A stretch of DNA of 64,000 nucleotides from Neptunicoccus cionae. GTDB lineage: Bacteria; Pseudomonadota; Alphaproteobacteria; Rhodobacterales; Rhodobacteraceae. Shown here in pieces: positions 1,776 to 41,522 of the stretch (positions within the stretch are counted from its first letter, which is position 1; each line of letters opens with the position of its first letter). The stretch is taken from positions 744,001-808,000 of the forward strand of contig NZ_BMKA01000002.1 in assembly GCF_014643735.1 (NCBI RefSeq). The letters are read 5' to 3'. The notes below the pieces were generated by a model. That model searched no databases, was not told where the DNA came from, and saw only the letters and a program-made list of their open reading frames with translations. The translations under genes and the position numbers were made by a program.

Positions 1776-4700
1776 ATGACCTGTTCAATTGACTTCGAAT
1801 TTGCTTACACGCCCATGACCTTCAAATTTAACGTACCTGCGCCAACGCAACTGCCCGCCCCACGCTGCGGGTGTACACTAAAAACGCGCCTGACAGGACG
1901 GGATGTAGCCCTTTGGTTCATCCAGTACTGCATCGTGATAATTCTCGGCCTTCTCCTTATGATCGCCAAAACCGGCGGGGCATGGGCACAACAACTCATC
2001 CTTAATCCAACCGGCGCACCCACAGTACTGGGAAGCGGTGTCGGCAAACGCGGAATCTGGCGCAATGTCGGGACGGTGAACGGGGTAAATGTTGATATCG
2101 TCGGAATAATGACCTTCGCGACACGCGACCACCGGTTTGCCACCGGTAACGGCCAAATCATGATTACTTCAGTCGGGCAAGATCCGCATTTCGCAGATTT
2201 CTATATATACGAGGCTGGAACCCACAACATCTTCTCAAACACTGGCGGTGTTCCGGTCGTCGCCGATGTGGAAATCCAGATCAACGACATCGATGGCCCT
2301 TTGAACGAACAGGTCTACGTTAACCTTTGCGACGGAACAGTTGAATACATCCGCGTTGACCGTTCTGCCACCACGTATCGCGGCTATGTCGAAGGGCCTG
2401 ACCCTAGCCTTGGCACAGAAACATTCTACCTCGCTGGCGATCGGGGTTATGCAAACCAGCCGGTCTCCGGACTGGAAATTTTCTACCCGCAAACCTCAAC
2501 CTTCAGCTTTGGCCGAACAGCAAACAACGGTTTTCTGGTCCTGCTTGCAAACCCGACATACGATGCCTCCCAAACCTACGAGCTAAAATGCGGTGACTTC
2601 AAGGCGCCAGTTTTGCAGGACGATATAAAGGAACAGGTTCTTGGCGAACCCGTGACTGTGAACATCCTGTTCAACGACTCTGTCGCAACAGAAAATGATA
2701 ACGCACCCGCAAACAACTCGCTACAGCCCAGCGAATACGCGATGCAGGCGATTGACCTCGTTCCACCCGCAGGCGCACTGAATATCGTGACTGACAGCAA
2801 CGGCCACCGCGTTGCCTTTGATGTTATCGGCGAAGGAACATGGAGCTATGATGACATCACGGGCGAACTGACCTTCACCCCGTTCGTCGCTTTCTTCGCT
2901 GCACCGACCCCGATCGAATACCGCTTTCAATCCCCCATCATCCTGCCAAGCGAACCGCAAGCTTATTCCGCCCCCGCGCAGGTCTCAATCGATGTCGGTT
3001 CCGTGGGCCTGTTGAAGCTGGCCCAACTGGTCGACACCAATCTCAACGGGTACGCTGACCCCGGTGAAACCATCGCTTACGTGTTCACCGCTGAAAACTT
3101 CGGCAATGTCGATCTCACCAATGTCCAGCTTGCCGAAACCCAATTCAGCGGTGCCGGCATCCCCCCCGTAATAACCTTTCAGGCCGCAACTTCATTGTCG
3201 CCGGAAGGCACCCTCTTGGTTGGGGAAAAGGCGGTCTACACAGCCACTTATACTTTGGTCCCCGAAGACATGGACACCACGATTTCCAATCAGGCGGAAG
3301 CCACCGCACAAACACCCGGCGGCACCACTGTCTCTGACCTATCGGATTCCGAAAATCCGTCAGACGGTGATGGAGTTGCACAAAATGGTCCGGGGGATGG
3401 GCGGGATGACCCCACAACCATCTATGCCGGTTCCGGCCCTGATCGCGGCGACGCGCCGATCACCTATGGCGACCCGCAACATGCCGATACATCCGCTTAC
3501 TGGATTGGCGCGTTGAACGGCGATGGCGACAGCTCTGCGCAACATTCCGTAGACGGAACTGGCGATGATTCAGATGGAAAAGATGACGAAAGCGATGAGA
3601 GTTTCCCCCAACTTTACGGCGATCTGACCCGCACAATCACGATCCCGGTTAGTGAGCCCACACCCGGATCAGGGTATCTGCAGGCGTTTGTCGATTTTGG
3701 CGGCGATGGAACATTTCTGTCGCTCGGCGATCAGGTAGCATCTGACATTCGCGACGGCGGACCGCAGGACCTTGACGGCACCATCAACGGAGAGATCAGC
3801 TTTGCAATTTCGGTGCCCGCGACTGCGGTTCTCACCCCGACTTTTGCACGGCTGCGCTGGTCAAGCGTTGCCAGTCTCACAGCAATTTCAACCGCCACAG
3901 ACGGAGAAGTCGAAGACTATGGCATTACCATAAAGACCCCGCCGGATGCTGATCGTGGCGATGCTCCGGCCAGCTATGGCGATCCCCAGCATATCATCGA
4001 AGGCCCAGCCGCACCTGAAATATACCTAGGCTCTGTCCCACCAGACATCGATTTGATCGCCCAAAACAGTGCAACGGCCTCCGGCGACGATCTAGACGGG
4101 AGCGATGATGAAGACGGTGTCGTTCTACCAACGCTTTATTTGGGGGGATTGGCCGAGATTACGGTAACGGTCAATGATCTGGGCAGTCCGCCCCAGAAAT
4201 CAGCATACCTTCAGGCCTTCATCGATTTTGACGGCGATGGCACGTTTTTGCAGGCGGGGGAACAAGTGGCCACCAATCTTCAGGACGGTGACGCGCTGGA
4301 CAAAGACGGGGCCACGAACGGTTCCATCCGATTTGAAGTCGCTGTCCCCTCAGGCGCCACCACAGCGCCAACCTTCGCCCGCTTCCGCTGGTCTAGGGAT
4401 ACCACCGCGCAAACCACCGCCTTTGAGGGAGAGGTTGAAGATTACACCCTTACCATATCCAGCGATCCACCACCCTTCCTGTGCGATGGCAGTCTCTACC
4501 GATATGATAGTGATAGAGTGGTGCGGCGGCTAACCTTTACAGCCAGTGGTGCAAATTATGTGATCGGATTTCAAGACATAGGAAATGCGCCACAAAACCT
4601 GAATGCCAACTGGGGTTACAACGCGCTGGACGGTTATATGTACGCTTTACGCCCAGGCCGCCGCGATCTGTACAGACTTGACGGTGCGGGGGATTTTGTC

Positions 4701-7067
4701 GACCTTGCCAACCTGCCCGATGGGACCGCTGTCGGCTCGACTGCGGGCGATATCCTGCCAAACGGCACGATGGTTTACGTTGACAACGCATCCACATGGC
4801 AACTGATAAGCTTGGTGGACGCAAGCAACCCCGTCAATCTCGGTTCTCTCAACCTCAGCCAAGCGATCAACACTGAAGACATCGCCTACAATCCGGTCGA
4901 CGGGCTGATCTATGGCATCAACCAATCTACAGGGCGCGCCTTCAAACTTGATCCCAATGGCGGGCTTCCTGGCGCCGTAACAGTTGTTGAGTTCGGACCC
5001 GCCATCTACGTGGGAATATTCGGTTCAATTTGGTTTGATGAGGACGGTCGTTTTTATGTTTACAGTAACTCCACCAACAACCTTTATCTAACGAGCACCG
5101 ACACCGGTGAAGCGCAGTTTATCGCCAACAGCTCTGTCGATGAATTGGGAGATAGCGATGGCATGTCATGCAGGGGTCCCGCCCCCATCCCGTTCGGTGC
5201 AATAGCCGGAAATGTTTACAACGATACGAATGCTTCGGACAGTAAGGACAATGGCGAAACCAATCTAGGAGGGGGCATCGGCATCTCTGTCTTTGATGAC
5301 GGAGGGACGCCAGCTGACACTAGCGATGATCTGTTCCTGATCACAACCGACACAGAGGCAGATGGCACATACGCCGTTGAAGACCTTCTGGTTAACACCA
5401 CATACCGCGTTGAACTTGATGAGACAGATCCGGATCTTGGTGGTGGAACCACCATCGGCACCTCAAATCCCCGTCTCGGGGTGGGTACAACCGCGGGGGA
5501 AGTCACGACCGACCAGGATTTCGGCTTTGACGCTGCGGCCAGCGATCTGGAATTGTCAAAATACGCCGCCTTAACAGGCACAACCACTCCGGTGACAAAT
5601 GTTTCCGAAGGCGATGTTATCGACTGGATCATAACCGTCTCTAACGTCAGTGGGGGATCTCCCTCCGGCGTTAAAGTCATCGACCTAATACCAAGCGGAT
5701 TTGCCTACGTGTCTGACAGCGCACCTTCTGCGGGCGATACATATGATCCGGATACCGGACTGTGGTTTGTCGATGAAATTCTGACCGGCGCAAGCGAGAC
5801 ACTTGTGATTACCACCACGGTGCTTGACAGCGGGGAGCTGACCAATACGGCAGAAATCATATACAGTTCCCTTCCCGACCCCGATAGCGATCCGGCAACC
5901 GGGCCGCTGACGGACGATCTGTTCGACCAGATCGCAGATGATGACGAAGCGTCCTATTCGGTCAATCTCGCGACCGGCGACAGGGTCTTCACAGGTCGAA
6001 TATTCAACGACAACGGTGCGTCGGGTGGTACAGCACATGATGCGGAAACCAATGGGGGTGAAGCTGGACTATTCTCGGCAGTCTTGGAAATTCTTGATGG
6101 TACGGGGACTGTTATCGCAACGCCGGATGTCGCTTCTGACGGGTCATGGACCTATGCGTTGCCGTCGTCCCACACAGGGGAGCTTACAATCCGCACGATA
6201 CCAGCCAACGGTTATCGCGCCATTTCTGAAGCAACAACCGGCTTGCCCGGTCTGACCAACCCCGACCCCCACGACGGGTCTTTTACTTTCACGCCGGACC
6301 CCTTTGGAAATCTTGTCGGCCTGAACTTTGGACTGTTGGAAATTCCCGTCCTCGCCCAAGATCAGGTCAGCACGGTGGGACGAGGACAGGTCGTAACTTT
6401 GGCCCACCTTTATACCGCAACATCCGATGGGGATGTAACCTTCTCGCTTGCAGACAGCACCGCGGTGCCAACGGGCGCATTTAGTGCTGCGCTATATTAT
6501 GATGCCGGATGTAGCGGAGCACCGGGCGTCCCCTTGACCGGGCCGCTGGCCGTCAGTGCAGGACAGACGGTTTGCATTCAATCCCGCGTTTCAGCCGGTG
6601 CAGGCGCGGGAACGGGTAGCAGGTTCACCTATAAAATCATCGCCACAACGGCCTTCACTGACACCACCGCCGTTAGCAGCGCAAGCAACACGGATGAAGT
6701 TAAAGTCGTCGCCCAAAGCGGACAGGTCCAGTTGACGAAGACGGTCGAGAATGAAACTGCAGGAACCCCCGAAGCGACCTCCAACCTGGGCGGCGCAAAC
6801 GATGTGTTGCTGTACCGGATTTATCTTGAAAATACGGACACAGCACCCGTTAGCAACGTCAAGGTTTTCGATAGAACGCCACCCTATACTGCCCTGGCAG
6901 AGCCCATCGCCGACCCCCAAATCCTGTCATCGAACCTGACTTGCAATTTGGCGAAACCTGTTGCCAATGCCGCGAACTATTCAGGATCGGTTGAGTGGAA
7001 TTGCTCCGGAAACTTCCTCCCTGGTGAGGTCGGCGCCCTCCAATTCAGGGTGGCGATTACCCCGTAA
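1776..7067 (+). CDS. Giant secreted multidomain repeat protein (CshA-like, GEVED, DUF11 and SdrD B-like domains)
   Basis: This predicted exported protein has 1763 residues. A hydrophobic segment at about residues 44-64 ends in an AWA|QQ signal-cleavage-like site, but about 43 residues precede it, so either the leader is unusually long or translation starts later (Met14 is the next candidate). After that come a CshA-like repeat (about 275-400), a DUF11/DUF7507-like Ig domain (about 403-540) and two GEVED domains (about 554-725 and 725-895). Each GEVED copy opens DRGDAP.(T/S)YGDPQH and ends in GEVEDY. Next is a propeller-like DUF6923-type region (about 900-1136), an SdrD B-like domain (about 1140-1255), DUF11 (about 1254-1380), a second SdrD-like unit (about 1404-1520) and a terminal DUF11-like domain. 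Asp-rich DGDGTF motifs suggest calcium binding. No LPXTG, autotransporter barrel or type I signal is visible. The role is inferred to be an extracellular or surface structural/adhesive protein. Confidence 0.8.
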   Translation: MTCSIDFEFAYTPMTFKFNVPAPTQLPAPRCGCTLKTRLTGRDVALWFIQYCIVIILGLLLMIAKTGGAWAQQLILNPTGAPTVLGSGVGKRGIWRNVGTVNGVNVDIVGIMTFATRDHRFATGNGQIMITSVGQDPHFADFYIYEAGTHNIFSNTGGVPVVADVEIQINDIDGPLNEQVYVNLCDGTVEYIRVDRSATTYRGYVEGPDPSLGTETFYLAGDRGYANQPVSGLEIFYPQTSTFSFGRTANNGFLVLLANPTYDASQTYELKCGDFKAPVLQDDIKEQVLGEPVTVNILFNDSVATENDNAPANNSLQPSEYAMQAIDLVPPAGALNIVTDSNGHRVAFDVIGEGTWSYDDITGELTFTPFVAFFAAPTPIEYRFQSPIILPSEPQAYSAPAQVSIDVGSVGLLKLAQLVDTNLNGYADPGETIAYVFTAENFGNVDLTNVQLAETQFSGAGIPPVITFQAATSLSPEGTLLVGEKAVYTATYTLVPEDMDTTISNQAEATAQTPGGTTVSDLSDSENPSDGDGVAQNGPGDGRDDPTTIYAGSGPDRGDAPITYGDPQHADTSAYWIGALNGDGDSSAQHSVDGTGDDSDGKDDESDESFPQLYGDLTRTITIPVSEPTPGSGYLQAFVDFGGDGTFLSLGDQVASDIRDGGPQDLDGTINGEISFAISVPATAVLTPTFARLRWSSVASLTAISTATDGEVEDYGITIKTPPDADRGDAPASYGDPQHIIEGPAAPEIYLGSVPPDIDLIAQNSATASGDDLDGSDDEDGVVLPTLYLGGLAEITVTVNDLGSPPQKSAYLQAFIDFDGDGTFLQAGEQVATNLQDGDALDKDGATNGSIRFEVAVPSGATTAPTFARFRWSRDTTAQTTAFEGEVEDYTLTISSDPPPFLCDGSLYRYDSDRVVRRLTFTASGANYVIGFQDIGNAPQNLNANWGYNALDGYMYALRPGRRDLYRLDGAGDFVDLANLPDGTAVGSTAGDILPNGTMVYVDNASTWQLISLVDASNPVNLGSLNLSQAINTEDIAYNPVDGLIYGINQSTGRAFKLDPNGGLPGAVTVVEFGPAIYVGIFGSIWFDEDGRFYVYSNSTNNLYLTSTDTGEAQFIANSSVDELGDSDGMSCRGPAPIPFGAIAGNVYNDTNASDSKDNGETNLGGGIGISVFDDGGTPADTSDDLFLITTDTEADGTYAVEDLLVNTTYRVELDETDPDLGGGTTIGTSNPRLGVGTTAGEVTTDQDFGFDAAASDLELSKYAALTGTTTPVTNVSEGDVIDWIITVSNVSGGSPSGVKVIDLIPSGFAYVSDSAPSAGDTYDPDTGLWFVDEILTGASETLVITTTVLDSGELTNTAEIIYSSLPDPDSDPATGPLTDDLFDQIADDDEASYSVNLATGDRVFTGRIFNDNGASGGTAHDAETNGGEAGLFSAVLEILDGTGTVIATPDVASDGSWTYALPSSHTGELTIRTIPANGYRAISEATTGLPGLTNPDPHDGSFTFTPDPFGNLVGLNFGLLEIPVLAQDQVSTVGRGQVVTLAHLYTATSDGDVTFSLADSTAVPTGAFSAALYYDAGCSGAPGVPLTGPLAVSAGQTVCIQSRVSAGAGAGTGSRFTYKIIATTAFTDTTAVSSASNTDEVKVVAQSGQVQLTKTVENETAGTPEATSNLGGANDVLLYRIYLENTDTAPVSNVKVFDRTPPYTALAEPIADPQILSSNLTCNLAKPVANAANYSGSVEWNCSGNFLPGEVGALQFRVAITP

Positions 7068-29998: not shown

Positions 29999-31132
29999 CT
30001 AACGCGGCAACGGATTCAGCGCCTTGTTGTACGGGGTCCAGTCCTTCACATCCGGATAATACTTGCGTCGCCACGCCCGCACTTTGGGGTTCATGTAGCG
30101 CCGCCAGAACGGTGGCATCATCGCCATAATCGTCATTATGGGATAACTGTATGGCAGTTGGGGTGCCTCATCCGCATCGTAGGTTTGCAGCAGCGGAAAA
30201 CGGCGGCTCGGCTTGTAGTGATGGTCCGAGTGGCGCTGCAGGTTGATCAGCACAAAGTTCGTGACACGGTGCGCCGCGTTCCATGAATGGCGGGGCAGGA
30301 CGTGTTCATATTTGCCCTCCCCCAGATGGCGGCGGGTCAGACCGTAGTGCTCAACGTAATTGACCAGCTCCAACTGCCAGATCGCCACAAAAGCTTGCAG
30401 GCAGAACATGCCCACGCCGGTCCATCCCCCGATCATATAGGCCAGCAACAGCCACCCCGCCTGCCACGCCGCGTATCGCCAGAACGGGTTGCTGCGATGG
30501 GATGCGGGAAGACCCTTACGCGCCAGCATCGCCTTCTCCGCCCCAAAGGCAGAGTGGAAGCAGGACACAAGCACACGGCGGAAAAAGCGGTGGAACCCTT
30601 CGTTGTAGCGCGCGGTCACAGGATCACGCGGCGTTCCCACATAGCGGTGATGCACCAGCAGGTGTTCGCTGCGAAAATGACCGTACAGTACCATTGTCAT
30701 CAGCATATCGCCCAGAAACCGTTCAAAACGGGACTTCTGGTGCATCAATTCATGGGCATAGTTGATCCCGATGGTTCCGCTGGCAATGCCAACTGTCGCC
30801 ATAAAAATCCAGCTTTCCCGCGTGCTTAGCCGATCAGTCCAACTGACATAGGCCAGTGATCCGAACACCAGAACCACCTGCAAAAACGGCCAGATCAGGG
30901 TGATCAACGTGTACCAGCGCAGACTGTTATCCGGTGTTTCTGTGTCCATATTGTCCGTGCGCAAACCGCCAACCACATCCACCAGAGACATGGCCCACCA
31001 GCCAAACAGCGGGGTCAGCGCCAGCCACCAGCCGCCCTGCCAACCAGCCAGAGCGAGCACAGGCAGATAGCCAAGCGACAGCCAGAACGGCAGCGCTGCA
31101 AGAAAATTGGTGCGGATGGGATCGCCAGACAT
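29999..31132 (-). CDS. Alkane 1-monooxygenase (AlkB family, integral membrane)
   Basis: The 377-residue polytopic di-iron protein carries the AlkB histidine boxes: HELMHQ (about residue 127), EHLLVHHRYVGTPRDPVTA (about 158), NYVEHYGL and LQRHSDHH (about 298). AlkB hydroxylates the terminal carbon of alkanes and needs rubredoxin and rubredoxin reductase. Neither is encoded nearby, so electrons must come from elsewhere. GGAG precedes ATG 31132. Related enzymes act on other hydrocarbons or lipids, so alkane use is a family inference. Confidence 0.88.
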   Translation of the reverse strand: MSGDPIRTNFLAALPFWLSLGYLPVLALAGWQGGWWLALTPLFGWWAMSLVDVVGGLRTDNMDTETPDNSLRWYTLITLIWPFLQVVLVFGSLAYVSWTDRLSTRESWIFMATVGIASGTIGINYAHELMHQKSRFERFLGDMLMTMVLYGHFRSEHLLVHHRYVGTPRDPVTARYNEGFHRFFRRVLVSCFHSAFGAEKAMLARKGLPASHRSNPFWRYAAWQAGWLLLAYMIGGWTGVGMFCLQAFVAIWQLELVNYVEHYGLTRRHLGEGKYEHVLPRHSWNAAHRVTNFVLINLQRHSDHHYKPSRRFPLLQTYDADEAPQLPYSYPIMTIMAMMPPFWRRYMNPKVRAWRRKYYPDVKDWTPYNKALNPLPR

Positions 31133-31255
31133 GAATGCTCCGGTAGTTTTTCGCAATCTGGCACGAAAGGCGGGAACACACAATTCAAACGGTGGGGAAG
31201 GTTGGCCGCGCAGCAACGGGCGGCCAACCTTCGGATCAGAAGCATTCAGTCGGGT

Positions 31256-32608
31256 TTAGCCCGCAGCGGTGATACCGGCGTCGACCGCGTTCAGAATGGT
31301 ATCCACCTCGGCTTCGCTGATCACCAACCCCGGAGACAGCAGGATATTCGCACCGGAAACCCGCAGCATCGCGCCATTCTCATAGGCGACCTTGGCGACC
31401 TTGGCGCCAAAATCCGGTGCCATCTGCTTTTTGCTCTCGCGGTCGGATACAAATTCAATCGCAGTCATCAACCCGTGGCCACCGCGGACATCCCCGATAA
31501 CACTGTGTTTTTCCTTCAGGCGCTGCACGCCTTCAAACATCTGCGTCCCCCGCGCGGCGGCGTTGACCCGCACGTCCAGGCGCTGGGTTTCTTTCAGACA
31601 GGCAACCGCAGCAGCCGCCCCGACCGGATGGCCGGAATAGGTGTAACCGTGGCCGATAGACCCTTCGGGTCCGGCTTTTTCAAACACTTCGGTCATGCTT
31701 TCCGCAATCATACAAGCACCGAACGGGTAGTATCCGTTGGTGATCGCTTTGGCGGTACACATCATATCAGGCTGCACACCCCAGTGCCGCGAACCGGACC
31801 AGTCGCCTGTGCGACCAAAGGCGGTGATCACCTCATCCGCGATCATCAGGATACCGTGGCGGGAACAGATCTCGCGCATGCCGGGCATGAATGTTTCGTG
31901 TGGCACCATGATGCCACCGGCCCCAAGGATCGGCTCCATGATGAAGGCCGCGATGGTGTTTGGCCCTTGGAAAGCGATCTCGTCTTCGGCGGCTTGTAGG
32001 ATCAATTGGGTCAGCTTGGCGGGGTCAGATTCATTGAACGGGTTGCGATAGGCATAGGGTGCCGGCAGGTGGCGACAGCCAGGAAGCAGCGGTTCATAGG
32101 CGGTGCGGAAGCGGTTGTTACCATTCACCGAAGCGCCGCCGAAGTGGGTGCCGTGATAGCCTTTCTTCAGGCTTAGGAACTTGGTGCGCTGGGTCTCACC
32201 ACGGATTTTGTGATACTGACGGGCCAAACGCAGGCTGGTTTCAACGGAATCGGACCCGCCGCTGGTGAAGAACGCACGCCCCATGCCTTCGGGCTGAAAA
32301 AACTCGCGCAACATGTAGGACAGCTCAATCGCTGCATCATTAGACGTGCCAGCGAAGGTGGAATAATAGGGCAGCTGGTTCAGCTGGTTAGAGATCGCCT
32401 CTTTCACCGGATCACAGGAATAACCGAGGTTTACGTTCCACAACCCGCCAACTGCATCGATGGTTTCGTGACCGTCGATATCGGTGATCTTAACGCCCTG
32501 AGCACCGGTGATAATTGCCGGAGGGTTGTCTTGCTGGCCGCCGGGATGGGCCATCGGGTGCCACATGTGTTTTGCGTTATTTTCCTTAAGGAAGTTATCG
32601 TCTTTCAT
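31256..32608 (-). CDS. Class III PLP-dependent aminotransferase
   Basis: About 450 residues of the omega-amino-acid/pyruvate aminotransferase family. Motifs are FFTSGGSDSVETSLRLARQY, SLKKGYHGTHFGGASVNGN, LMIADEVITAFGRTGDW with the PLP-binding Asp, and TAKAITNGYYPFGA with the PLP Lys. Family members move amino groups from taurine, beta-alanine, GABA or diamines to pyruvate. A taurine:pyruvate role is tempting because xsc is 8 kb away, but nothing here proves it. It lies downstream of the IclR gene on the same strand, probably co-regulated with the divergent transporter operon. An upstream in-frame TTG could extend it by eight residues. Confidence 0.87.
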   Translation of the reverse strand: MKDDNFLKENNAKHMWHPMAHPGGQQDNPPAIITGAQGVKITDIDGHETIDAVGGLWNVNLGYSCDPVKEAISNQLNQLPYYSTFAGTSNDAAIELSYMLREFFQPEGMGRAFFTSGGSDSVETSLRLARQYHKIRGETQRTKFLSLKKGYHGTHFGGASVNGNNRFRTAYEPLLPGCRHLPAPYAYRNPFNESDPAKLTQLILQAAEDEIAFQGPNTIAAFIMEPILGAGGIMVPHETFMPGMREICSRHGILMIADEVITAFGRTGDWSGSRHWGVQPDMMCTAKAITNGYYPFGACMIAESMTEVFEKAGPEGSIGHGYTYSGHPVGAAAAVACLKETQRLDVRVNAAARGTQMFEGVQRLKEKHSVIGDVRGGHGLMTAIEFVSDRESKKQMAPDFGAKVAKVAYENGAMLRVSGANILLSPGLVISEAEVDTILNAVDAGITAAG

Positions 32609-32662
32609 CTTTCCGATCCTTTTTTTGGTCAAAGCCCGTTCGGGCAGGTTCAGGGTTGGGGC

Positions 32663-33436
32663 TTATTCGGCCGCATCGAGCACCGGCTGACGCCGTGCTC
32701 CGTAAAGTCTGGAAATAGCTTGTGCCGCTTCGTCGATGTTCAGCGCGATGCAGTCGCGGACCCGATCATCAAAACGGGACATGGGCGTGGCCACGGCAAC
32801 AGCGCCGCAAACCGTGTCAGTGTGATCGAAAACCGGCGCGGCCATACCCACGACATCAGCTTCGAATGTTCCGAACATCAAAGCATGCCCCGCCGCCTGC
32901 GCCTGCTCCACCAGTGCCAGCACTGATTCGCGCTCCAGCGGGGTTTCGGTGGTGATCCGCTCAAGCACACGGTTTAAAATCCGGTCGCGCTTGGCTGCGT
33001 CAAGACAGCTTAAATAGGCGATGCCCGATGCGGTGGCGTGGAAGGGCAAAATTTCAGCCGGATCAATATAGACCCGCGTGGCCCTGACCGAAGTTTCCAC
33101 AATGGCTACCTCGCTCAATCCATTCTTTTGATGGTGGCTTAGATGCGCGGTTTCTCCGGTTTTCTCTACCAGATCAGATAAAACGTTTTTTGCTGCGATC
33201 TCAATGGGATATGTCAAGTTTCGCACAGACGCCAGCCGCGTTACGGCAGGACCGAGGTGGTAGGTTTTGCTCAGCGGGTCTTGCTCCAGAAACCCTTGGG
33301 CCTCCAGCGCGGTCAGGTATCTTTGGACGGTCGCTTTATCCCGTTTCAACAACCGTGCTGCTTCTGACAAACCGATAGACGGACGGGCGGTATGGAACAG
33401 GTCCAGTATCTCCAAAGCCTTCTCTACAGTGCTCAT
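32663..33436 (-). CDS. IclR-family transcriptional regulator
   Basis: The 257-residue protein begins MSTVEKALEILDLFHTARPS with the winged helix (LSEAARLLKRDKATVQRYLTAL) and has an IclR effector domain ending QAISRLYGARRQP. It sits between the class III aminotransferase it precedes and the divergent tctC operon. A near-perfect palindrome lies in the intervening promoter region. That arrangement argues that it controls both sides in response to the imported compound or a product. An alternative GTG is one codon upstream. Confidence 0.9.
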   Translation of the reverse strand: MSTVEKALEILDLFHTARPSIGLSEAARLLKRDKATVQRYLTALEAQGFLEQDPLSKTYHLGPAVTRLASVRNLTYPIEIAAKNVLSDLVEKTGETAHLSHHQKNGLSEVAIVETSVRATRVYIDPAEILPFHATASGIAYLSCLDAAKRDRILNRVLERITTETPLERESVLALVEQAQAAGHALMFGTFEADVVGMAAPVFDHTDTVCGAVAVATPMSRFDDRVRDCIALNIDEAAQAISRLYGARRQPVLDAAE

Positions 33437-33472
33437 CACTTACCCTATCGTTGCAAATGCATCGTTTTTTGT

Positions 33473-33530
33473 TTGACACTGATCCTGCTTTGAAGCAATC
33501 ATTATTTCAACCGACGGATTGAATAATGAT
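33473..33530 (+). promoter_or_regulatory. Promoter and likely IclR operator for the tctCBA operon
   Basis: TTGACA at 33473-33478 is followed 17-18 bases later by a weak -10 (AATCAT). The inverted repeat ATCATTATTTCAA (33498-33510) and TTGAATAATGAT (33519-33530) has 12 matching positions with one extra T and an 8-base spacer. It overlaps the -10 and start region, as expected for a regulator-controlled promoter. Confidence 0.6.
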
Positions 33531-33576
33531 CCACGGTCATGACTTGGAACACAAGACATCGGACAGGGAGTCCCTT

Positions 33577-34518
33577 ATGAAACATTTTCTTACCATAGCA
33601 GCTACGGCCGCATTAACGGCTGGTGCCATCGGCGCGCCTGCATTGGCTGAATACCCCGAGAAACCCGTAAACTTTATCGTGCCGTGGCCTCCGGGTGATC
33701 TGGAAGACGTGCTGACCCGCATGATCGCCGAAGATTTCCAAAAGGAATACGGCGTAGCAGCGGCAGTGGTGAACAAGCCGGGCGGCGGTGGTGGCCCGTT
33801 CCCGGGTGCCATTGATGTGGCGACTGCTCCGGCGGACGGCTATACCATCGGTTCATTCGTGATCGGCGTTCCGCTGATCGGCCACGAGATCGGTATCGAC
33901 GAACTAACCCCCGCGAAATTCGACCCGCTGGGCATTTTCCTGACCTACCCGTTTGTTCTGGCAACATCCGGTGACGCGCCATTCAAGACGATTGAAGAAA
34001 TGGCCGAACATGCCAAATCCAACGATCTGGCGCTGGGGCATTTCGGTGCGCCGCTGACACCGACCAAAGTGTCACTGGCCTATGCCAAAACCGCCGGTTT
34101 TGAATGGGGATCCGAAGCTGCGTTTGATGCGCTTGACTGTAACACGCTGGCCTCTGGCGATGCGGATGTGATCAACACAACACTGCAACTGGTTCTGCCA
34201 TGTCTCGACAGCATCACCGTTCTGGCGACCATGACAGACGAGCGTATTTCCCTTACACCGGATGCACCGACAATGGCCGAAGTGAACCCCGAGCTGGGTA
34301 TCTCTTTGTGGAACGGTCTGTTCGTCACCAAAGACACCCCGCAAGACGTGCGCGAAAAGATCATCGCGGTTGCGAAGAAAACCGTTATGTCCGAGCGCGC
34401 CCAGAAACTGGCCGCTGAGACAGGTGCCGGTGTCTATTGGCAGGATGCTGACACATCTGCCGGTCGGATCGAAACCGACACAGGCAAACTGGCGACAGTG
34501 AACGGTCTGATAGAGTAA
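33577..34518 (+). CDS. Tripartite tricarboxylate transporter substrate-binding protein (TctC family)
   Basis: The 313-residue periplasmic protein has a signal peptide (MKHFLTIAATAALTAGAIGA..ALA) followed by EYPEKPVNFIVPWPPG, the standard opening of TctC/Bug proteins. VVNKPGGGGG is the ligand-loop motif. These proteins feed carboxylates and other small molecules to a TctAB permease. Two cysteines in the C-terminal lobe (DALDCNTLA, VLPCLDS) could form a disulphide. A terminator-like hairpin separates it from tctB, fitting excess production of the binding protein. Confidence 0.92.
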   Translation: MKHFLTIAATAALTAGAIGAPALAEYPEKPVNFIVPWPPGDLEDVLTRMIAEDFQKEYGVAAAVVNKPGGGGGPFPGAIDVATAPADGYTIGSFVIGVPLIGHEIGIDELTPAKFDPLGIFLTYPFVLATSGDAPFKTIEEMAEHAKSNDLALGHFGAPLTPTKVSLAYAKTAGFEWGSEAAFDALDCNTLASGDADVINTTLQLVLPCLDSITVLATMTDERISLTPDAPTMAEVNPELGISLWNGLFVTKDTPQDVREKIIAVAKKTVMSERAQKLAAETGAGVYWQDADTSAGRIETDTGKLATVNGLIE

Positions 34519-34539
34519 ACCGTTTCCGATAAAGACCCG

Positions 34540-34565
34540 AACCGGCCCCTTCGGGCCGGTTTTTC
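34540..34565 (+). terminator. Attenuating terminator between tctC and tctB
   Basis: AACCGGCCC and GGGCCGGTT form a 9-bp stem with a CTTC loop, followed by a short T-run. The permease genes continue 23 bases later on the same strand, so it probably lets only part of the transcripts through. Confidence 0.8.
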
Positions 34566-34587
34566 TGAACCTGCGAGGGAGACCGCA

Positions 34588-35106
34588 ATGAGCACCGAAC
34601 CGACGAAAGCCAAACCCGGAGAGATGCTGTTTGTGGGTCTGTTCTTCGCAGTTTCCGCCTATTTGCTGACCCAAATCGGGGATCAGGCCAAGTTCTCGGC
34701 CAAAGGCAAACTTTTCGCACAGCCCGCATTCTGGCCGGGTGTTGGCGTGATTGGGATGGTTGGATTTACCGCACTGCATTTGCTGACCCACATGAAACAA
34801 CGGGCGAAAAGCGGGCTTGGCAGTGAAGTGGTGATCTGGCTGCGGGCCTTTGAATTTGTCGGGTGGTTCATGATCTACGTGATCGCCGTACCGCGCATCG
34901 GCTACCTGCCAAGCACGGTTCTGTTTACCTTCCTCCTTGCCCTTCGCATGGGGTATCGCAGTCTGGCAATGCTGGGCTGGTCCGCTGCATCGGGTGTAGC
35001 GATTGTCATCATCTTCAAGACACTTCTAGGCGTGAAAATCCCCGGAGGTGCGCTTTATGAGCATCTGCCCGACGGATTGCGCAACTTCATGATTATGGGC
35101 TTCTGA
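34588..35106 (+). CDS. Tripartite tricarboxylate transporter small membrane subunit (TctB family)
   Basis: The 172-residue protein with four hydrophobic segments (near residues 13-30, 49-67, 85-103 and 120-150) fits the TctB family in length and in the ending GVKIPGGALYEHLP, a recognisable TctB tail. It acts with TctA in the inner membrane. GAGGGAG precedes the start, and the stop is one base before the tctA start region. Confidence 0.9.
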   Translation: MSTEPTKAKPGEMLFVGLFFAVSAYLLTQIGDQAKFSAKGKLFAQPAFWPGVGVIGMVGFTALHLLTHMKQRAKSGLGSEVVIWLRAFEFVGWFMIYVIAVPRIGYLPSTVLFTFLLALRMGYRSLAMLGWSAASGVAIVIIFKTLLGVKIPGGALYEHLPDGLRNFMIMGF

Positions 35107-35107
35107 T

Positions 35108-36592
35108 ATGGATCTGTTTTTCTCCAGTTTAGAGATCCTCGCCCGTTGGGATGTGCTGATCGCCCTTATCGTCGGCTCTGTCGGGGGCGTGATTATCGGC
35201 GCAATTCCAGGTGTCGGGGCGGCTGTGGCCATCGCGATTCTGCTGCCCGCAACCTTTTCGCTTGATCCCATCGTCGGACTGACCGCGCTTTTGGGGATTT
35301 ACGGCAGTTCCATGTATGGCGGTGCGATTCCCGCAATTCTGGTGAACACACCGGGGACGGCGGTGAACGCGCTGACGACCTACGACGGCTATCCGATGAC
35401 CCAGCGGGGCGAGGGCCGACGCGCCCTGTCGCTCGCGTATTCTGCAAGCTTCTTCGGGGGTGTTTTTGCGGTTGTCTGCCTGATTTTTCTCTCTCCAATA
35501 CTAGCAGCCATCGCCCCCCATTTCGGCAGCCGCGAGATTTTCCTCGCGTCCTTGCTCGGGATTATTCTGGTGGTGCTGGCCCATCGCGGGCAAATCCTGA
35601 TCGCTGGCGCACTGGCCTGTTTCGGCATCTGGCTGAACACCATCGGGCTGGAGCCGATCCAGTATTCAAAGCGCTACACCTTCGGGCAAAGCTGGCTGTC
35701 TGGCGGCGTCGATCTGATCGTGGTGGTGCTGGGGCTGTTTGCCATATCACAGGCAATCGTCCTTTTGGTGGACGAGAACCGCGCGCCGCGCACAGGCACC
35801 CTGTCGGGGGGGCTGTTCCAAGGCTTTAAAGAACTGTTCCAACACAAACGGGTCGCAAGCGTCAGTGCATCCTTCGGGGTGATGATGGGGATGATACCCG
35901 GTGTCGGGGAATTTACCGCGCAATTTATGTCCTATACGGCTGCGCGGCGCGGATCGAAAACGCCAGAGCTGTTTGGCAACGGCGCACCGGAAGGTTTGAT
36001 CGCCTCCGAAGCCTCTAACAATGCCGTGCCCGCCGCAGCGATGATACCGCTGCTGGCTCTTGGCATTCCGGGCGAAGCGCTGACCGCGATGATGTTGTCG
36101 GTGTTTTATGTGCATAACGTGGTGCCCGGACCGCAATTGTTCCAAAACCAGATGGATTTCGTTGTCGCGCTTTATATTGCGCTGCTGTTGCTGAACGTGA
36201 TGGTTGTCATATTCCTGCTGTTTTCGACCAACCTGCTGCTGAAAATCATCCAGATCCCGACCCGTTTTCTGGGCATTATCATTCTGACCCTGTCGTTTGT
36301 CGGGGTCTATTCCCTGCGCAATTCCACCATCGACTGCGCCATAGCGGCGGGGTTCGGCGTGTTCGGGTTTATTCTGAAACGTCTGAACCTGCCCATCGTA
36401 CCGATTATCCTTGGCATGGTTCTTGGCGGGATCATGGAAGCCAAACTGCGCACCTCTATGATGCGGGTCAAAACCCCATTCGACATGATCGACCGCCCTA
36501 TCGCCTTTATCCTGTTTCTCCTGATCCTCGCCGTGCTCGGCTCTCATGTCTGGCGCATGTGGAAGGATCGCAATTCGACGGAAGACCTATGA
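35108..36592 (+). CDS. Tripartite tricarboxylate transporter large permease (TctA family)
   Basis: The 494-residue membrane protein holds the TctA repeats: IGAIPGVGAAVAIAILLPAT near residue 35 and the partner MMGMIPGVGEFTAQF in the second half. The GSSMYGGAIPAILVNTPGT motif is also characteristic. It carries out ion-driven import with TctB and TctC. Its TGA overlaps the ATG of the aldehyde dehydrogenase gene (ATGA), implying coupled translation and tying the transporter to the enzymes downstream. Confidence 0.93.
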   Translation: MDLFFSSLEILARWDVLIALIVGSVGGVIIGAIPGVGAAVAIAILLPATFSLDPIVGLTALLGIYGSSMYGGAIPAILVNTPGTAVNALTTYDGYPMTQRGEGRRALSLAYSASFFGGVFAVVCLIFLSPILAAIAPHFGSREIFLASLLGIILVVLAHRGQILIAGALACFGIWLNTIGLEPIQYSKRYTFGQSWLSGGVDLIVVVLGLFAISQAIVLLVDENRAPRTGTLSGGLFQGFKELFQHKRVASVSASFGVMMGMIPGVGEFTAQFMSYTAARRGSKTPELFGNGAPEGLIASEASNNAVPAAAMIPLLALGIPGEALTAMMLSVFYVHNVVPGPQLFQNQMDFVVALYIALLLLNVMVVIFLLFSTNLLLKIIQIPTRFLGIIILTLSFVGVYSLRNSTIDCAIAAGFGVFGFILKRLNLPIVPIILGMVLGGIMEAKLRTSMMRVKTPFDMIDRPIAFILFLLILAVLGSHVWRMWKDRNSTEDL

Positions 36593-38073
36593 CCACACAA
36601 TCGCAAATCGACGCCCTGCGCAGCGAAACCGTTGCAGCGCAATCCCTGTTCATCGACAACGCCACCGTAGAAGGCACTGCCGAACCGATGGCTGTGACCT
36701 CCCCAATTGACGGCACGCAGCTGACCACCATCGCCAATGCCACATCGGGCGAGGTTGATCTGGCCGTTGCATCAGCCCGCACTGCGTTCAATGACGGGCG
36801 CTGGTCCCGTCTGGCCCCTGCCGCGCGCAAGAAAATCCTGTTCGCGGTGGCCGATGCGATTGAAGCCGATGCGCTGGCGCTGTCCGTGCTTGGCATCCGC
36901 GACAACGGGACCGAGTTCGCGATGGCCTATAAAGCCGAGGCCGGTTCCGCCGCCGCCACCTTCCGCTATTACGCTGAAGCCATCGACAAAACACCGGGGG
37001 AAATCGCCCCTACAGCGCCCGGCACGCTGGGTCTGGTGCATCACGAACCTGTCGGCGTGGTCGGTGCGATCATCCCGTGGAACTTCCCGCTGATGATTGG
37101 CGCATGGAAAATCGCCCCTGCCATTGCAGCGGGCAATTCAATCGTTGTGAAGCCTGCCGAAACCGCATCCCTGTCCTTGTTGCGACTGGCTGAAATTGCA
37201 GCCGGTGCTGGCCTGCCTGCGGGCGTGCTGAATGTTGTTACAGGCGATGGCCGTATTGCGGGGGATGCGCTGGCGCGGTCTATGGATGTCGATGTGCTGG
37301 CCTTTACCGGATCGGGCATGACGGGGCGCAAACTGCTAGAAGCATCGGCCCAATCGAACCTCAAACGGGTTTATCTTGAGCTGGGCGGGAAATCCCCGAA
37401 CGTGGTTTTTGCCGATGCGCCGGATCTCGACAAAGCGGCGGCTGTTTCTGCTGGTGGTATCTTTCGCAATGCGGGGCAGGTCTGCGTGGCTGCATCCCGC
37501 TTGCTGGTAGAACGTAGCATCCATGATGATTTTGTCGCGGCGCTGAAATCCCATGCCGAAGCGTTTAAGGTTGGTGATCCGCTGGACCTGAACACCCAAA
37601 TCGGTGCGGTAAATTCCGAAACCCAACTGGCCGGAAACCTGCGACTAACCGAGGCAGCGATCAGTGAAGGGGCAGAGTGTATCACAGGGGGCAACCGCAT
37701 CCTTGAAGACACTGGCGGCAGCTATATGGCGCCTACAATCCTGTCCGGTGTGACACCCACCAACACCGTGTTCCGCAAAGAGGTCTTCGGGCCGGTTCTC
37801 GCAGTAACGCCATTTGACACCGAAGAAGAAGCCGTCCAGCTTGCCAATGACAGCGACCTTGGCCTTGCGGCAGGTGTCTGGACCTCGAACCTGTCGCGCG
37901 CCCACAATATGATCAGCGCGATCAACGCCGGTGTGGTGCATGTGAACACCTACGGCGGGCCGGATAACACCGTGCCGCTGACAGGTCATAAACAATCGGG
38001 CAACGGTTCGGACAAATCGCTTCATGCGCTTGATAAATACACCAACCTGAAAACCGCATGGATACAGCTATGA
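36589..38073 (+). CDS. Aldehyde dehydrogenase (NAD(P)-dependent)
   Basis: The 494-residue ALDH-superfamily enzyme has the cofactor loop VVGAIIPWNFPLMIGAWKIA, GNSIVVKPAE, the active-site Glu region LELGGKSPNVVF and the catalytic Cys in FRNAGQVCVAASR. It resembles gamma-glutamyl/betaine aldehyde and semialdehyde dehydrogenases. ATGA overlaps join it to tctA upstream and to the class III PLP gene downstream. In this setting it should oxidise the aldehyde or semialdehyde made by its neighbour. Confidence 0.92.
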   Translation: MTTQSQIDALRSETVAAQSLFIDNATVEGTAEPMAVTSPIDGTQLTTIANATSGEVDLAVASARTAFNDGRWSRLAPAARKKILFAVADAIEADALALSVLGIRDNGTEFAMAYKAEAGSAAATFRYYAEAIDKTPGEIAPTAPGTLGLVHHEPVGVVGAIIPWNFPLMIGAWKIAPAIAAGNSIVVKPAETASLSLLRLAEIAAGAGLPAGVLNVVTGDGRIAGDALARSMDVDVLAFTGSGMTGRKLLEASAQSNLKRVYLELGGKSPNVVFADAPDLDKAAAVSAGGIFRNAGQVCVAASRLLVERSIHDDFVAALKSHAEAFKVGDPLDLNTQIGAVNSETQLAGNLRLTEAAISEGAECITGGNRILEDTGGSYMAPTILSGVTPTNTVFRKEVFGPVLAVTPFDTEEEAVQLANDSDLGLAAGVWTSNLSRAHNMISAINAGVVHVNTYGGPDNTVPLTGHKQSGNGSDKSLHALDKYTNLKTAWIQL

Positions 38074-39350
38074 CCTCGCTCAGCAAATCTTTACTTGCAC
38101 GGCGTGATGCGGTGCTCGGCCCCAATATGTCCACCTTTTATCAAGAGCCTGTGCATCTGGTAAAAGGGGAAGGCGTTTGGGTCTGGGACCATGACGGGAA
38201 AAAGTATCTCGACTGCTACAATAATGTGCCCCACGTGGGTCACTGCCACCCCCATGTGGTGAAAGCCATGTCAGATCAGGCGGCAACGCTGAACACGCAT
38301 ACGCGGTACTTGCACGAAGGCATCGTCGATTATGCCGAGAAGCTGACGGCGACCTTTGATGACCCGCTGAACACGGCGCTGCTGTGCTGCACCGGATCGG
38401 AAGCCAACGATGTTGCCCTGCGCATGGCCGAGGCTGTGACCGGAAAGACCGGCATTATCGTCACCAACCACACCTATCACGGCAACACGACGGCTGTGTC
38501 GGCTCTGTCCACGACCAACCCGTCGAAGTTCGGCAAATCGAGCCATATTCGTCATGTGCCTGCACCCGACAGCTATCGCCCGCCCGAAGGCGATGCAGGT
38601 GAATATTTCGCAGAGCAAGTGAAAGCGAAAATTGCAGAACTGGAAGACAGCGAACACGGTTTCGCCGCCCTGCTGATCGACCCGTTCTTTGCGAACGAGG
38701 GCTTTCCCGACCTGCCCGCCGGATTTCTAAACGCGACCATGAAAGTCGTGCATGACGCCGGAGGCATCCTGATCGCGGATGAGGTCCAACCCGGTTTCGG
38801 GCGTACCGGCAGCCATATGTGGGGACATCAGTACCAAGGAATCACGCCTGATGTGGTGACGCTGGGCAAACCGATGGGCAACGGTCATCCGGTGGCTGGC
38901 GTGGTCACAACGGCTGCGATCATGCACGAGTTTCGCACGGCATTCCGCTACTTCAACACCTTCGGCGGCAACCCTGTGTCCTGCGCCACTGCGCTGGCCG
39001 TGCTTGAGGTGATTGAACAGGAAGGTCTGATGCAGCAAGCCGCCGATGTGGGCGCCTATGCCAAGGGTCGTCTGCAGGAACTGGCGGAAAAGCACAGCGT
39101 TATCGGCGATGTGCGCGGGCGCGGCATGTTTTTCGGAGCAGAACTGGTAACCGACCGCACCACCAAAGCCCCCGCAACGGATTACATCCTGCGTGTGATC
39201 GAAGAACTGCGCAATCGGGGCATACTGCTGAATAAAATCGGCATCCATTACAACACCCTGAAAATTCGCCCGAATCTGCAATTCACGCGGGACGACGCGG
39301 ACCTTCTGATCGACACGCTGGATCAGGTTCTATCGGACGTGCAGCCATGA
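38070..39350 (+). CDS. Class III PLP enzyme, AGXT2L/phospholyase-like aminotransferase
   Basis: The 426-residue fold-I enzyme shows VHLVKGEGVWVWDHDGKKYL, CCTGSEANDVALRMAEAVTG, ILIADEVQPGFGRTGSHMWG and VTLGKPMGNGHPVAG with the PLP Lys. The FEP/HGNT-type loop (NHTYHGNTTAVSAL) and general layout resemble the AGXT2L group, which cleaves O-phosphorylated amino alcohols (phosphoethanolamine, 5-phosphohydroxylysine) to aldehyde, ammonia and phosphate. The next gene encodes an APH-fold kinase, as in known kinase/phospholyase pairs. Transamination remains possible. Start overlaps the ALDH stop and its stop overlaps the kinase start. Confidence 0.85.
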   Translation: MTSLSKSLLARRDAVLGPNMSTFYQEPVHLVKGEGVWVWDHDGKKYLDCYNNVPHVGHCHPHVVKAMSDQAATLNTHTRYLHEGIVDYAEKLTATFDDPLNTALLCCTGSEANDVALRMAEAVTGKTGIIVTNHTYHGNTTAVSALSTTNPSKFGKSSHIRHVPAPDSYRPPEGDAGEYFAEQVKAKIAELEDSEHGFAALLIDPFFANEGFPDLPAGFLNATMKVVHDAGGILIADEVQPGFGRTGSHMWGHQYQGITPDVVTLGKPMGNGHPVAGVVTTAAIMHEFRTAFRYFNTFGGNPVSCATALAVLEVIEQEGLMQQAADVGAYAKGRLQELAEKHSVIGDVRGRGMFFGAELVTDRTTKAPATDYILRVIEELRNRGILLNKIGIHYNTLKIRPNLQFTRDDADLLIDTLDQVLSDVQP

Positions 39351-40294
39351 CGGATGCGCTGGCACAACTGGCCATTGCCCGATGGGATGTGGACGCCACT
39401 TCGGTTGAACTCGTGGCAGAGCGGGAAAATCGCGTTTTCCGCGTGATAACACCGGACGCTACCTATGCTTTGCGCCAACATCGCAGCGGCTATCGCACTG
39501 ATGCGCAGCTAAGCTCTGAACTGGCTTGGATGAAATCGCTCGACACGGCGGGTCTGTCGCTGCCCCGCCCGATCGCGGGTTCGGATGGGGCCCACCTGCA
39601 ACTGGTGAACGAAGCGCAGTTTGATCTGCTGACTTGGCTGAGTGGCCGTCAGCTCGGGGCATTCGGCACGCCACTTGATCTGGACGATCCCGAACGCACG
39701 TTCCACGACCTCGGTCAGGCAATGGCGCGACTGCATAAAGCGTCTGATGCTTGGACCGTTCCCGCAGGTTTCACCCGTCCCCGCTGGGATGCGGATGGTC
39801 TGATCGGAGAGACACCGCAGTGGGGGCGGTTCTGGGAAAACCCGACCCTGACGCCAGACCAAAAGACCCTGTTTGAAACCTTCCGGGCGGAAGCCACTGC
39901 GACACTGTCGGAGGGTCAGCACGACTTTGGCCTGATCCACGCCGATCTGTTGCGGGAGAATATCCTGATCGACGGGCGAGACCTGCATCTGATCGACTTT
40001 GACGATGGCGGGCCGGGGTATCGGCTGTTTGAACTGGCCACCACAATTTTCCGCATCCGCGAAGAAACAAATGCACCGGTCCTGCAATCCGCACTGATCG
40101 AGGGCTACCAGTCCGAGCGTACAATTAACATCACACACCTGCCCCTGTTCATCGCCCTGCGGGCCTGCACCTATGTGGGCTGGATCGTCACGCGAATGGA
40201 GCTTCAGGGCGCGCAGGAGCGCAACAAGCAGCACATTAACAATGCGACCCAAGTGGTTACAAACTGGCTTAATTCGGGAGGCACTCATGTCTGA
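39347..40294 (+). CDS. APH-fold small-molecule kinase (hydroxylysine kinase/homoserine kinase II-like)
   Basis: The 315-residue protein of the aminoglycoside-phosphotransferase/choline-kinase superfamily has the Brenner motif HADLLRENILI (about residue 198: catalytic Asp, Asn ligand) and the metal-binding LIDFDDGG (about 217). The N-lobe reads NRVFRVITPDATYALRQHR with the expected Arg/Lys region. Relatives phosphorylate choline, ethanolamine, hydroxylysine or homoserine. Being wedged between a phospholyase-like gene and a Tm-1-like gene, with overlaps on both sides, it probably phosphorylates the imported amino alcohol. Confidence 0.87.
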   Translation: MTDALAQLAIARWDVDATSVELVAERENRVFRVITPDATYALRQHRSGYRTDAQLSSELAWMKSLDTAGLSLPRPIAGSDGAHLQLVNEAQFDLLTWLSGRQLGAFGTPLDLDDPERTFHDLGQAMARLHKASDAWTVPAGFTRPRWDADGLIGETPQWGRFWENPTLTPDQKTLFETFRAEATATLSEGQHDFGLIHADLLRENILIDGRDLHLIDFDDGGPGYRLFELATTIFRIREETNAPVLQSALIEGYQSERTINITHLPLFIALRACTYVGWIVTRMELQGAQERNKQHINNATQVVTNWLNSGGTHV

Positions 40295-41522
40295 CAAGAC
40301 TATTCTAGTCGTCGGAACCTACGACACCAAAGACGACGAGTTGAACTATATGGCAGAGCGGATCACCGCAATGGGCGGCGGCGTTCTGACGATGGATGTC
40401 AGCGTTCTTGGCGACCCGTCAGAGCCTTGCGACCATTCCAAACACGCAGTGGCAGAGGCCGCAGGCAGTTCCATTAAGGCGGCGATTGATTCAGGCGATG
40501 AAAACACCGCGATGCAGATCATGGCGCGGGGCGCGTCGCAGCTTGCAGCGCAGCTTTACCGTGACGGCGCTTTTGATGGTGTGGTCATTCTGGGCGGCAC
40601 GATGGGCACTGATCTGGCGCTGGATGTCTGTCAGGCGCTGCCGATGGGGGTGCCGAAATACGTGGTGTCTACGGTGTCTTTCTCGCCAATTATCCCACCC
40701 GAACGACTGTCTGCGGATATTCAGATGATCCTTTGGGCCGGTGGGCTTTACGGTCTGAACTCTGTCTGCAAGGCCTCCCTGTCCCAAGCGGCAGGCGCGG
40801 TGTTGGGCGCGGCCCGTGCGGTGGAACCACCCTCTACGGATCGACCCATCGTCGGGATGACATCGCTTGGATCGTCCTGTCTGAAATATATGAAAAAGCT
40901 GAAACCTGCACTGGAAGAGCGGGGCTATGAGGTTGCGATTTTCCACGCCACAGGAATGGGCGGCATGGCGTTTGAATCCCTTGCCTCGCAAGGGCGGTTT
41001 TGTTGCGTCATGGATTTCGGCCTGTCGGAACTCGGCAACTTGATTGCAGGCTCTGTGGTGAACAGCGGCAGTCAAAGGATGCTGAACGCTGGGCAGGCTG
41101 GCATCCCCCAGATGGTCGCCCCCGGCTGTTTCGATCTGGTGGATTTCGCAGGTTGGCAGGACATCCCCGAAAACTACCGCGACCGTCCGTTTCACGAACA
41201 TAACCGCCTGATCAAGTCGTCTGCTTTCAACGCCGAGGAACGCCGCGAATCCGCCCGCGAGGTGGCCAAGCGTCTGGCGAAAGCCAAAGCACCCACCCAT
41301 TTTATCATGCCGCTGCAAGGGGTTGAGGAATGGGACAAAGAAGGCGATGTGGCCCATGATCCCGAAGGGCTCGCCGCGTTTACGGATGAGGCGCGCAAGG
41401 TGATGACAGACCCTATCGGCTATTCCGAAGTAGACGCCCATATTAACGATCAGGCCTTCGCTGACAAAGCGCTGGAAATCTTTGACGCTTGGGTCGCGGA
41501 CGGGACGATCCGCAAGGATTAA
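40287..41522 (+). CDS. Tm-1-like ATP-binding (UPF0261) protein
   Basis: The 411-residue protein matches the UPF0261 family: ILVVGTYDTKDDELNYMAER at the N-terminus, VVILGGTMGTDLALDVC, and GMTSLGSSCLKYMKKL. The N-terminal half of plant resistance protein Tm-1 belongs here and binds ATP. Bacterial members are often paired with a phosphoenolpyruvate-mutase-like TIM-barrel protein, which is absent in this operon. Function in bacteria is unproven. It overlaps the kinase gene by eight bases and is the last gene of the operon. Confidence 0.85.
   Translation: MSDKTILVVGTYDTKDDELNYMAERITAMGGGVLTMDVSVLGDPSEPCDHSKHAVAEAAGSSIKAAIDSGDENTAMQIMARGASQLAAQLYRDGAFDGVVILGGTMGTDLALDVCQALPMGVPKYVVSTVSFSPIIPPERLSADIQMILWAGGLYGLNSVCKASLSQAAGAVLGAARAVEPPSTDRPIVGMTSLGSSCLKYMKKLKPALEERGYEVAIFHATGMGGMAFESLASQGRFCCVMDFGLSELGNLIAGSVVNSGSQRMLNAGQAGIPQMVAPGCFDLVDFAGWQDIPENYRDRPFHEHNRLIKSSAFNAEERRESAREVAKRLAKAKAPTHFIMPLQGVEEWDKEGDVAHDPEGLAAFTDEARKVMTDPIGYSEVDAHINDQAFADKALEIFDAWVADGTIRKD

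Follow-up and report, generated by a model that had tools for sequence, protein, structure and literature searches.

A stretch of 64,000 nucleotides of Neptunicoccus cionae DNA (contig NZ_BMKA01000002.1, positions 744,001 to 808,000; hereafter the window) carries, between positions 31256 and 41522, a gene module that probably serves, under IclR control, to break down aromatic amines, chiefly arylethylamines with a beta-hydroxyl group that resemble octopamine or noradrenaline. This reading rests on gene families, operon structure, conservation and a genomic tie to ring-cleavage genes, from which the substrate, the enzyme activities and the direction of transport are deduced. In the proposed pathway, a tripartite tricarboxylate transporter (TTT) whose binding protein TctC has an acidic loop would import a cationic or zwitterionic amine, an APH-fold kinase would phosphorylate its benzylic hydroxyl, and a pyridoxal-phosphate (PLP) enzyme of the phospholyase type would eliminate phosphate and ammonia to yield an arylacetaldehyde that an aldehyde dehydrogenase (ALDH) would oxidise to the arylacetate. 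The arylacetate would then enter homoprotocatechuate meta-cleavage (HpaD-E-F-G-H-I), which in the relatives of the window is encoded elsewhere in the genome, and a divergently transcribed transaminase would form an aldehyde of that kind by deaminating the non-hydroxylated analogues tyramine and dopamine. The features are as follows.

31256-32632, minus strand: class III transaminase, PRK07481 subfamily, divergent (NCBIfam NF005683, 711 bits, cut-off 575)
32663-33439, minus strand: IclR-family regulator, divergent (Pfam HTH_IclR and IclR_C)
33498-33530, no strand: palindrome (inverted repeat), putative IclR operator
33577-34518, plus strand: TctC solute-binding protein with an unusual acidic loop, PPGDLEDVLTR (Pfam TctC; loop comparison)
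34588-35106, plus strand: TctB small membrane subunit (Pfam TctB)
35108-36592, plus strand: TctA large membrane subunit (Pfam TctA)
36589-38073, plus strand: ALDH (Pfam Aldedh; best NCBIfam match PuuC, below cut-off)
38070-39350, plus strand: class III PLP enzyme, predicted phospholyase of the AGXT2L/ETNPPL type (Pfam Aminotran_3; PDB 5g4i and 6tor; alignments; tree)
39347-40294, plus strand: APH-fold small-molecule kinase (Pfam APH; best PDB match 6ef6)
40287-41522, plus strand: UPF0261/Tm-1-like protein of the PRK02399.1-4 type (UPF0261 N and C domains; NF002676)

Open reading frames, strands and Pfam and NCBIfam matches bear out the preliminary description of this DNA, which had seen a seven-gene overlapping operon (tctC-tctB-tctA-ALDH-PLP-kinase-UPF0261) facing an IclR regulator and a second class III aminotransferase. 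According to coordinates and translations, one base lies between tctB and tctA, and each junction from tctA onward is an overlap, as that description had it: ATGA at tctA/ALDH (36589-36592), ALDH/PLP (38070-38073) and PLP/kinase (39347-39350), and eight bases at kinase/UPF0261 (40287-40294). The tctC gene probably starts at 33577 in a reading frame that opens earlier, at 33526; the frame of the divergent transaminase opens with TTG at 32632, and its in-frame ATG at 32608 is the probable start. Because the identical gene order is seen again in relatives, the grouping is not due to chance. The palindrome that had been noticed between the divergent units is also present, with 16-nt arms that are 81% complementary and a 1-nt spacer, and it is kept nearly unchanged in all four close relatives aligned (L008-L011), with one arm base changed in L008 and one in L009; in L011 it is retained though the flanking DNA has diverged.

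The two enzymes at the centre of the proposed route are the PLP enzyme and the kinase. Among PDB chains the PLP enzyme matches two phospholyases, 5g4i (410 bits) and 6tor (368 bits), well ahead of the best other chain (222 bits), and alignment with these two reveals the common stretches NNV.HVGH, GKPMGNGHP (the PLP-lysine loop region) and GNPVS. GKPM and NGHP are found in 81 of the 83 members of the PLP cluster, and the window's own transaminase has AKAITNGYYPFGA there. Judged by its sequence, the co-operonic PLP enzyme is closer to phospholyases than to transaminases, and the divergent class III enzyme differs from it in being a transaminase-type protein, with 6s54 and 5lh9, the latter named an omega transaminase, as its nearest PDB relatives. 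ETNPPL-type phospholyases produce aldehydes from compounds in which the amine-bearing carbon adjoins the phosphate-bearing one, and kinship suggests that the PLP enzyme may likewise split both phosphate and ammonia off a phosphorylated amino alcohol. For the kinase, the top solved relative is 6ef6 (109.9 bits), which is named only as an aminoglycoside phosphotransferase in the match table and which we take to be an aminopropanol kinase. The catalytic HxDxxxxN motif and the metal-binding Asp (H198, D200, N205 and D217) are invariant in all six aligned sequences, and the APH-fold protein is predicted to be an amino-alcohol kinase. It is very improbable that the PLP enzyme is an ordinary transaminase and that the kinase has another purpose: the fold is common to all class III enzymes, and public annotation calls the relatives aminotransferases, but the gap in bit score, the stretches held in common with solved phospholyases and the fixed pairing of the PLP gene with the kinase gene all argue against it.

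That pairing was evaluated in loci that the kinase alignment picked out when genome contigs were searched with it; the best 80 were kept (more exist), and their gene content was determined by tblastn with the window proteins. The nearest by kinase identity are those of Neptunicoccus sediminis (L008, 81%), a Rhodobacteraceae metagenome-assembled genome (L009, 79%) and Amylibacter cionae (L010, 78%). Kinase and PLP genes stay together in other genomes, as a kinase/phospholyase route would lead one to expect: both are present in 79 of the 80 loci, and they lie no more than 60 bp apart in 67 of the 69 in which both were gene-called. UPF0261 is found in 57 of the 80, TctC, TctA and the ALDH closest to that of the window in 53 each, and the transaminase in 49, with all five present jointly in 35. 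The gene set is nevertheless not one indivisible pathway, since the transporter, transaminase, ALDH and UPF0261 genes occur without kinase and PLP genes (L005), and kinase and PLP genes occur in stretches without transporter and UPF0261 (L062 and L063).

The neighbours of these loci bear on the substrate. At least one gene for the degradation of homoprotocatechuate (3,4-dihydroxyphenylacetate; hpa), in several arrangements, is present in 20 of the 80 kinase loci at 40% identity or more with HpaE not counted, a number that depends on the threshold (19 in another count, and 18 at 45% without HpaE). Among representatives checked against NCBIfam, HpaR, HpaD, HpaH and HpaD_Fe pass the curated cut-offs, and HpaF, HpaG-like, HpaE (a fragment) and HpaI have their own family as best match, below cut-off. 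Eleven annotated near-clade plasmid loci, chosen from match lists rather than at random, include six with hpa genes (L002, L003, L004, L007, L118 and L131) and one with homogentisate genes (L119): hpaR, hpaE or the isomerase adjoins the module on Ruegeria plasmids, hpaR lies beside it on a Pseudosulfitobacter plasmid, and a Rhizobium plasmid carries an hpa run. The fullest arrangement is that of Rhizobium leguminosarum (L118), which reads in order a 4-hydroxyphenylacetate 3-hydroxylase N-terminal domain-containing protein (HpaB-like), flavin reductase, ALDH, APC permease and IclR; then UPF0261, HAD hydrolase, transaminase, PLP enzyme and kinase; and finally hpaR, isomerase (hpaF), hpaE, hpaD, gabD, a fumarylacetoacetate-hydrolase-family gene (hpaG), hpaH and hpaI. 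In Agrobacterium (L131) the module lies between a P450 gene and a group made up of hpaI, hpaH and gabD. Some co-directional runs combine both sets of genes, for example tctA-ALDH-UPF0261-hpaF-E-D-G-H-PLP-kinase in L015 and PLP, kinase, hpaF-E-D(Fe)-G-H in L126, and a more distant Sphingobium pair (PLP enzyme 51% identical) has a homoprotocatechuate dioxygenase about 5 kb away. Homogentisate genes also adjoin L049 and L051, which together with L119 suggests a different ring pathway as a further exit for the acids. A PLP-dependent decarboxylase (Pfam Pyridoxal_deC) adjoins the module in L112 and one 62% identical to it lies inside the hpa run of L035; such an enzyme would fit an arylethylamine theme and might act on tyrosine or DOPA. 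In a maximum-likelihood tree of 89 PLP proteins, the 26 rows labelled by hand as hpa fall on many branches as the drawing reads; the count of changes on this tree (two) omits 58 unlabelled rows, and L113 is a long, unsure branch. None of the window's own clade of six has adjacent hpa genes. Among the five genomes behind its nearest loci, HpaD is over cut-off in four (G001-G004) with a partial match in the fifth (G005), and one of the five carries an HpaF-E-D-G-H-I run (L088).

The tie to ring cleavage also appears in counts over whole genomes. We used 198 genomes, of unstated completeness, from the family of the genome that holds L010, scoring as ring dioxygenase any HpaD or HpaD_Fe over cut-off and as UPF0261 any PRK02399.1-4 type over cut-off; the line for a strong kinase, 300 bits, was set after the score list had been seen. 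Strong kinases are present in 32 genomes, ring dioxygenases in 73 and UPF0261 in 70. A ring dioxygenase occurs in 27 of the 32 genomes with a strong kinase versus 46 of the 166 without (Fisher p 2e-9), and in 61 of the 70 with UPF0261 versus 12 of the 128 without (Fisher p 7e-29), relatedness being ignored in both tests. Genomes whose best kinase falls below 300 bits served as a control and showed no positive link (15/57 versus 58/141). The same contrast holds for position: a ring dioxygenase is encoded no more than 20 kb away from 10 of the 33 places with a strong kinase and from 1 of the 66 with a weaker one, and UPF0261 is nearby at 23 of the 33 and at none of the 66. The single weaker kinase near a ring dioxygenase, in G183, has a PLP gene, hpaR and HpaD_Fe as neighbours (L120) and so may really belong to the group. 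We also considered homogentisate as the main outlet and rejected it, as HmgA is over cut-off in 127 of the 198 genomes and thus too common for its presence to be informative; UPF0261 lies within 20 kb at five of seven hmgA places entered by hand.

If an arylacetate for HpaD is the next product of a kinase/phospholyase/ALDH sequence, the amine must be a beta-hydroxy arylethylamine. The preliminary description had proposed this sequence for an amino alcohol. Its chemistry gains support from the kinship to solved enzymes and the conserved pair, whereas aliphatic substrates of the kind it listed now seem less probable than an aromatic amino alcohol, given that genes for homoprotocatechuate or homogentisate ring cleavage adjoin the module again and again among relatives. 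That kinase and phospholyase instead act on an aliphatic amino alcohol (ethanolamine, aminopropanol, hydroxylysine, gamma-amino-beta-hydroxybutyrate or isoserine), with hpa genes as merely frequent neighbours in catabolic islands, is distinctly unlikely in our view. The solved relatives speak for it, namely the ethanolamine-phosphate phospholyase 6tor, 5g4i and 6ef6, as do four distant phospholyase loci in which the kinase gene comes first, the neighbours are ABC, SDR or hydantoinase genes and no hpa gene is annotated in about 15 kb; yet the hpa tie turns up again in varied gene layouts and across bacterial orders, and it is missing from the weaker kinase paralogues that these genomes carry.

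Another explanation is that the module serves mainly non-hydroxylated or N-methylated aromatic amines (tyramine, dopamine and N-methyl forms) through transaminase and ALDH, with kinase and phospholyase as an add-on for a further substrate. We regard this as unlikely, though it is the weightier of the two substrate alternatives. Transporter, transaminase, ALDH and UPF0261 genes stand in stretches without kinase and PLP genes in L005 and, next to hpa genes, in L092 and L111; UPF0261 is linked to the ring dioxygenase also among genomes without a strong kinase (35/42 versus 38/156); and a sarcosine/dimethylglycine-dehydrogenase-like protein with FAD and GcvT domains is found in 15 of the 80 loci, in 14 of them directly beside UPF0261 (L013, L017, L018, L030, L032, L034, L036, L039, L041, L044, L054, L055, L056 and L057). 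In the window and in 35 of the 80 loci, however, UPF0261, TctC, TctA, ALDH and transaminase accompany the kinase, and the kinase and PLP genes of the window sit within the same overlapping run.

Several observations weigh against the proposal of a module for beta-hydroxylated arylethylamines. No hpa gene is within reach in 60 of the 80 kinase loci (15 of the 80 are shorter than 18 kb), the window gave no tblastn match for seven Hpa proteins and HpaD_Fe, and four of the eleven near-clade plasmid loci (L001, L005, L006 and L112) have neither hpa nor homogentisate genes. Five of the 32 strong-kinase genomes are without both ring dioxygenases, and the genome counts are uncorrected for relatedness. 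The ligands known for TTT binding proteins are mainly carboxylates. Five UPF0261 loci without a kinase (L101, L103, L105, L107 and L108) continue with a FadB-like gene, a PimC/PimD-like dehydrogenase and a 4HBT thioesterase, some adding thiolase and oxepin-CoA-hydrolase-like genes, and these beta-oxidation-like genes are unexplained by arylacetate chemistry. Finally, the 32 strong-kinase genomes all lack HpaB_N, so that octopamine or another phenolic substrate could be used in them only with the help of a different ring hydroxylase. HpaB_N does occur in 11 of the 73 genomes that have a ring dioxygenase, and together the two counts favour a catechol of the noradrenaline type as substrate in that family, or another hydroxylase; the adjacent HpaB-like gene in R. 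leguminosarum fits octopamine there. For the other 62 of these 73, no HpaB_N match was obtained.

The last gene of the operon encodes a UPF0261 protein that scores 627.9 bits with NF002676 (PRK02399.1-4; cut-off 556). Its AlphaFold2 (AF2) model (mean pLDDT 93.2) matches tomato Tm-1 and 9mpy over the whole length at 27-28% identity, and the 50 rows listed in the fold comparison contain no further full-length relative, the others covering the N-terminal half. The homologue Saro_1862 (9mpy) was solved with bound acetovanillone. UPF0261 was also considered as the enzyme that phosphorylates the phenol in acetovanillone breakdown, and this was rejected because HpeHI are described as phenylphosphate synthase homologues (PMC9618137). 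The excerpted text on plant Tm-1 gives no reaction (PMC5028733). A relation of UPF0261 to a beta-keto-acid enzyme of the VceA type was considered as a candidate. We claim the aromatic link only for the PRK02399.1-4 type, since three distant UPF0261 loci adjoin aldolase, phosphoenolpyruvate-hydrolase or sugar-transport genes.

The Pfam matches of TctA, TctB and TctC are all above cut-off, which makes a full TTT set. Solved TctC relatives aligned with the window protein have PGG..D or a near variant where it reads PPGDLEDVLTR, and within the TctC cluster of the loci GDLED occurs in 57 of 61 members, one-letter variants in three and no match to the pattern in one; such an acidic loop would fit a cationic ligand. 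The AF2 model (mean pLDDT 89.4) has a predicted TctC-like fold, and its fold comparison returned tied neighbours that indicate no ligand. On four Rhizobiaceae plasmids (L007, L112, L118 and L131) an APC permease stands where the TTT importer otherwise sits. The ALDH has PuuC as top NCBIfam match and is below the curated cut-off for every family shown. Adjoining the transaminase, a fatty-acid-desaturase-family membrane protein (29999-31216, minus strand) is probably no part of the operon, since its cluster occurs, among the loci, only in L008-L012 and the window. Further away, 1776-7067 (plus strand) encodes a protein of 1763 residues with GEVED, DUF7507 and DUF11 domains.

Taken a step further, and here we are tentative, with doubt slightly ahead of conviction, the module may represent a previously undescribed, phosphorylation-dependent mineralisation of octopamine/noradrenaline-type compounds in marine and plant-associated Proteobacteria, with a cation-adapted TTT importer, a benzylic amino-alcohol kinase, an aryl phospholyase, UPF0261 as a new aromatic-amine protein and homoprotocatechuate or homogentisate cleavage as outlet. 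In the open-licence literature, which is the part of the printed record covered, we found no description of these known enzyme families in such a combination or setting, and nothing joining octopamine with a phospholyase or with homoprotocatechuate, which is no proof of absence from print. Catecholamine- and octopamine-type signals occur in marine invertebrates, algae and plants. If the proposal is right, it would describe a new bacterial way to consume neurotransmitter-like compounds and a testable genetic route for the breakdown of such signals, widen phospholyase chemistry beyond small amino alcohols to include aromatic ones, and place the uncharacterised UPF0261 family, to which the virus-resistance protein Tm-1 of plants is related, in a metabolic context that could guide the search for its reaction.

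Among known systems, the closest are the amino-alcohol kinase/phospholyase routes (6tor, 5g4i and 6ef6), which share the families, the pairing of the enzymes and an ALDH in the same operon; the module differs in the aromatic ring-cleavage context of its relatives, in its TTT importer, UPF0261, IclR and second transaminase, and in that the PLP gene precedes the kinase gene. An Arthrobacter synephrinase reportedly dehydrates synephrine and octopamine directly, with no phosphorylated intermediate; the overall conversion of a beta-hydroxy amine to an arylacetaldehyde would be the same, but the route proposed here goes via the phosphate. What links the module to the Hpa pathway (homoprotocatechuate/4-hydroxyphenylacetate meta-cleavage) is that the ring-cleavage genes either adjoin it or are encoded at another site of the genome; the differences are the proposed kinase/phospholyase entry step and the missing HpaB_N in the 32 strong-kinase genomes. 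Compared with TphC, Bug27 and BugD of other TTT systems, the window TctC has GDLED where those have PGG..D. Tomato Tm-1 and Saro_1862 share the whole-length fold of the UPF0261 protein at the identity given above, whereas the window protein belongs to the PRK02399.1-4 subfamily, stands alone and is tied to genes of aromatic catabolism.

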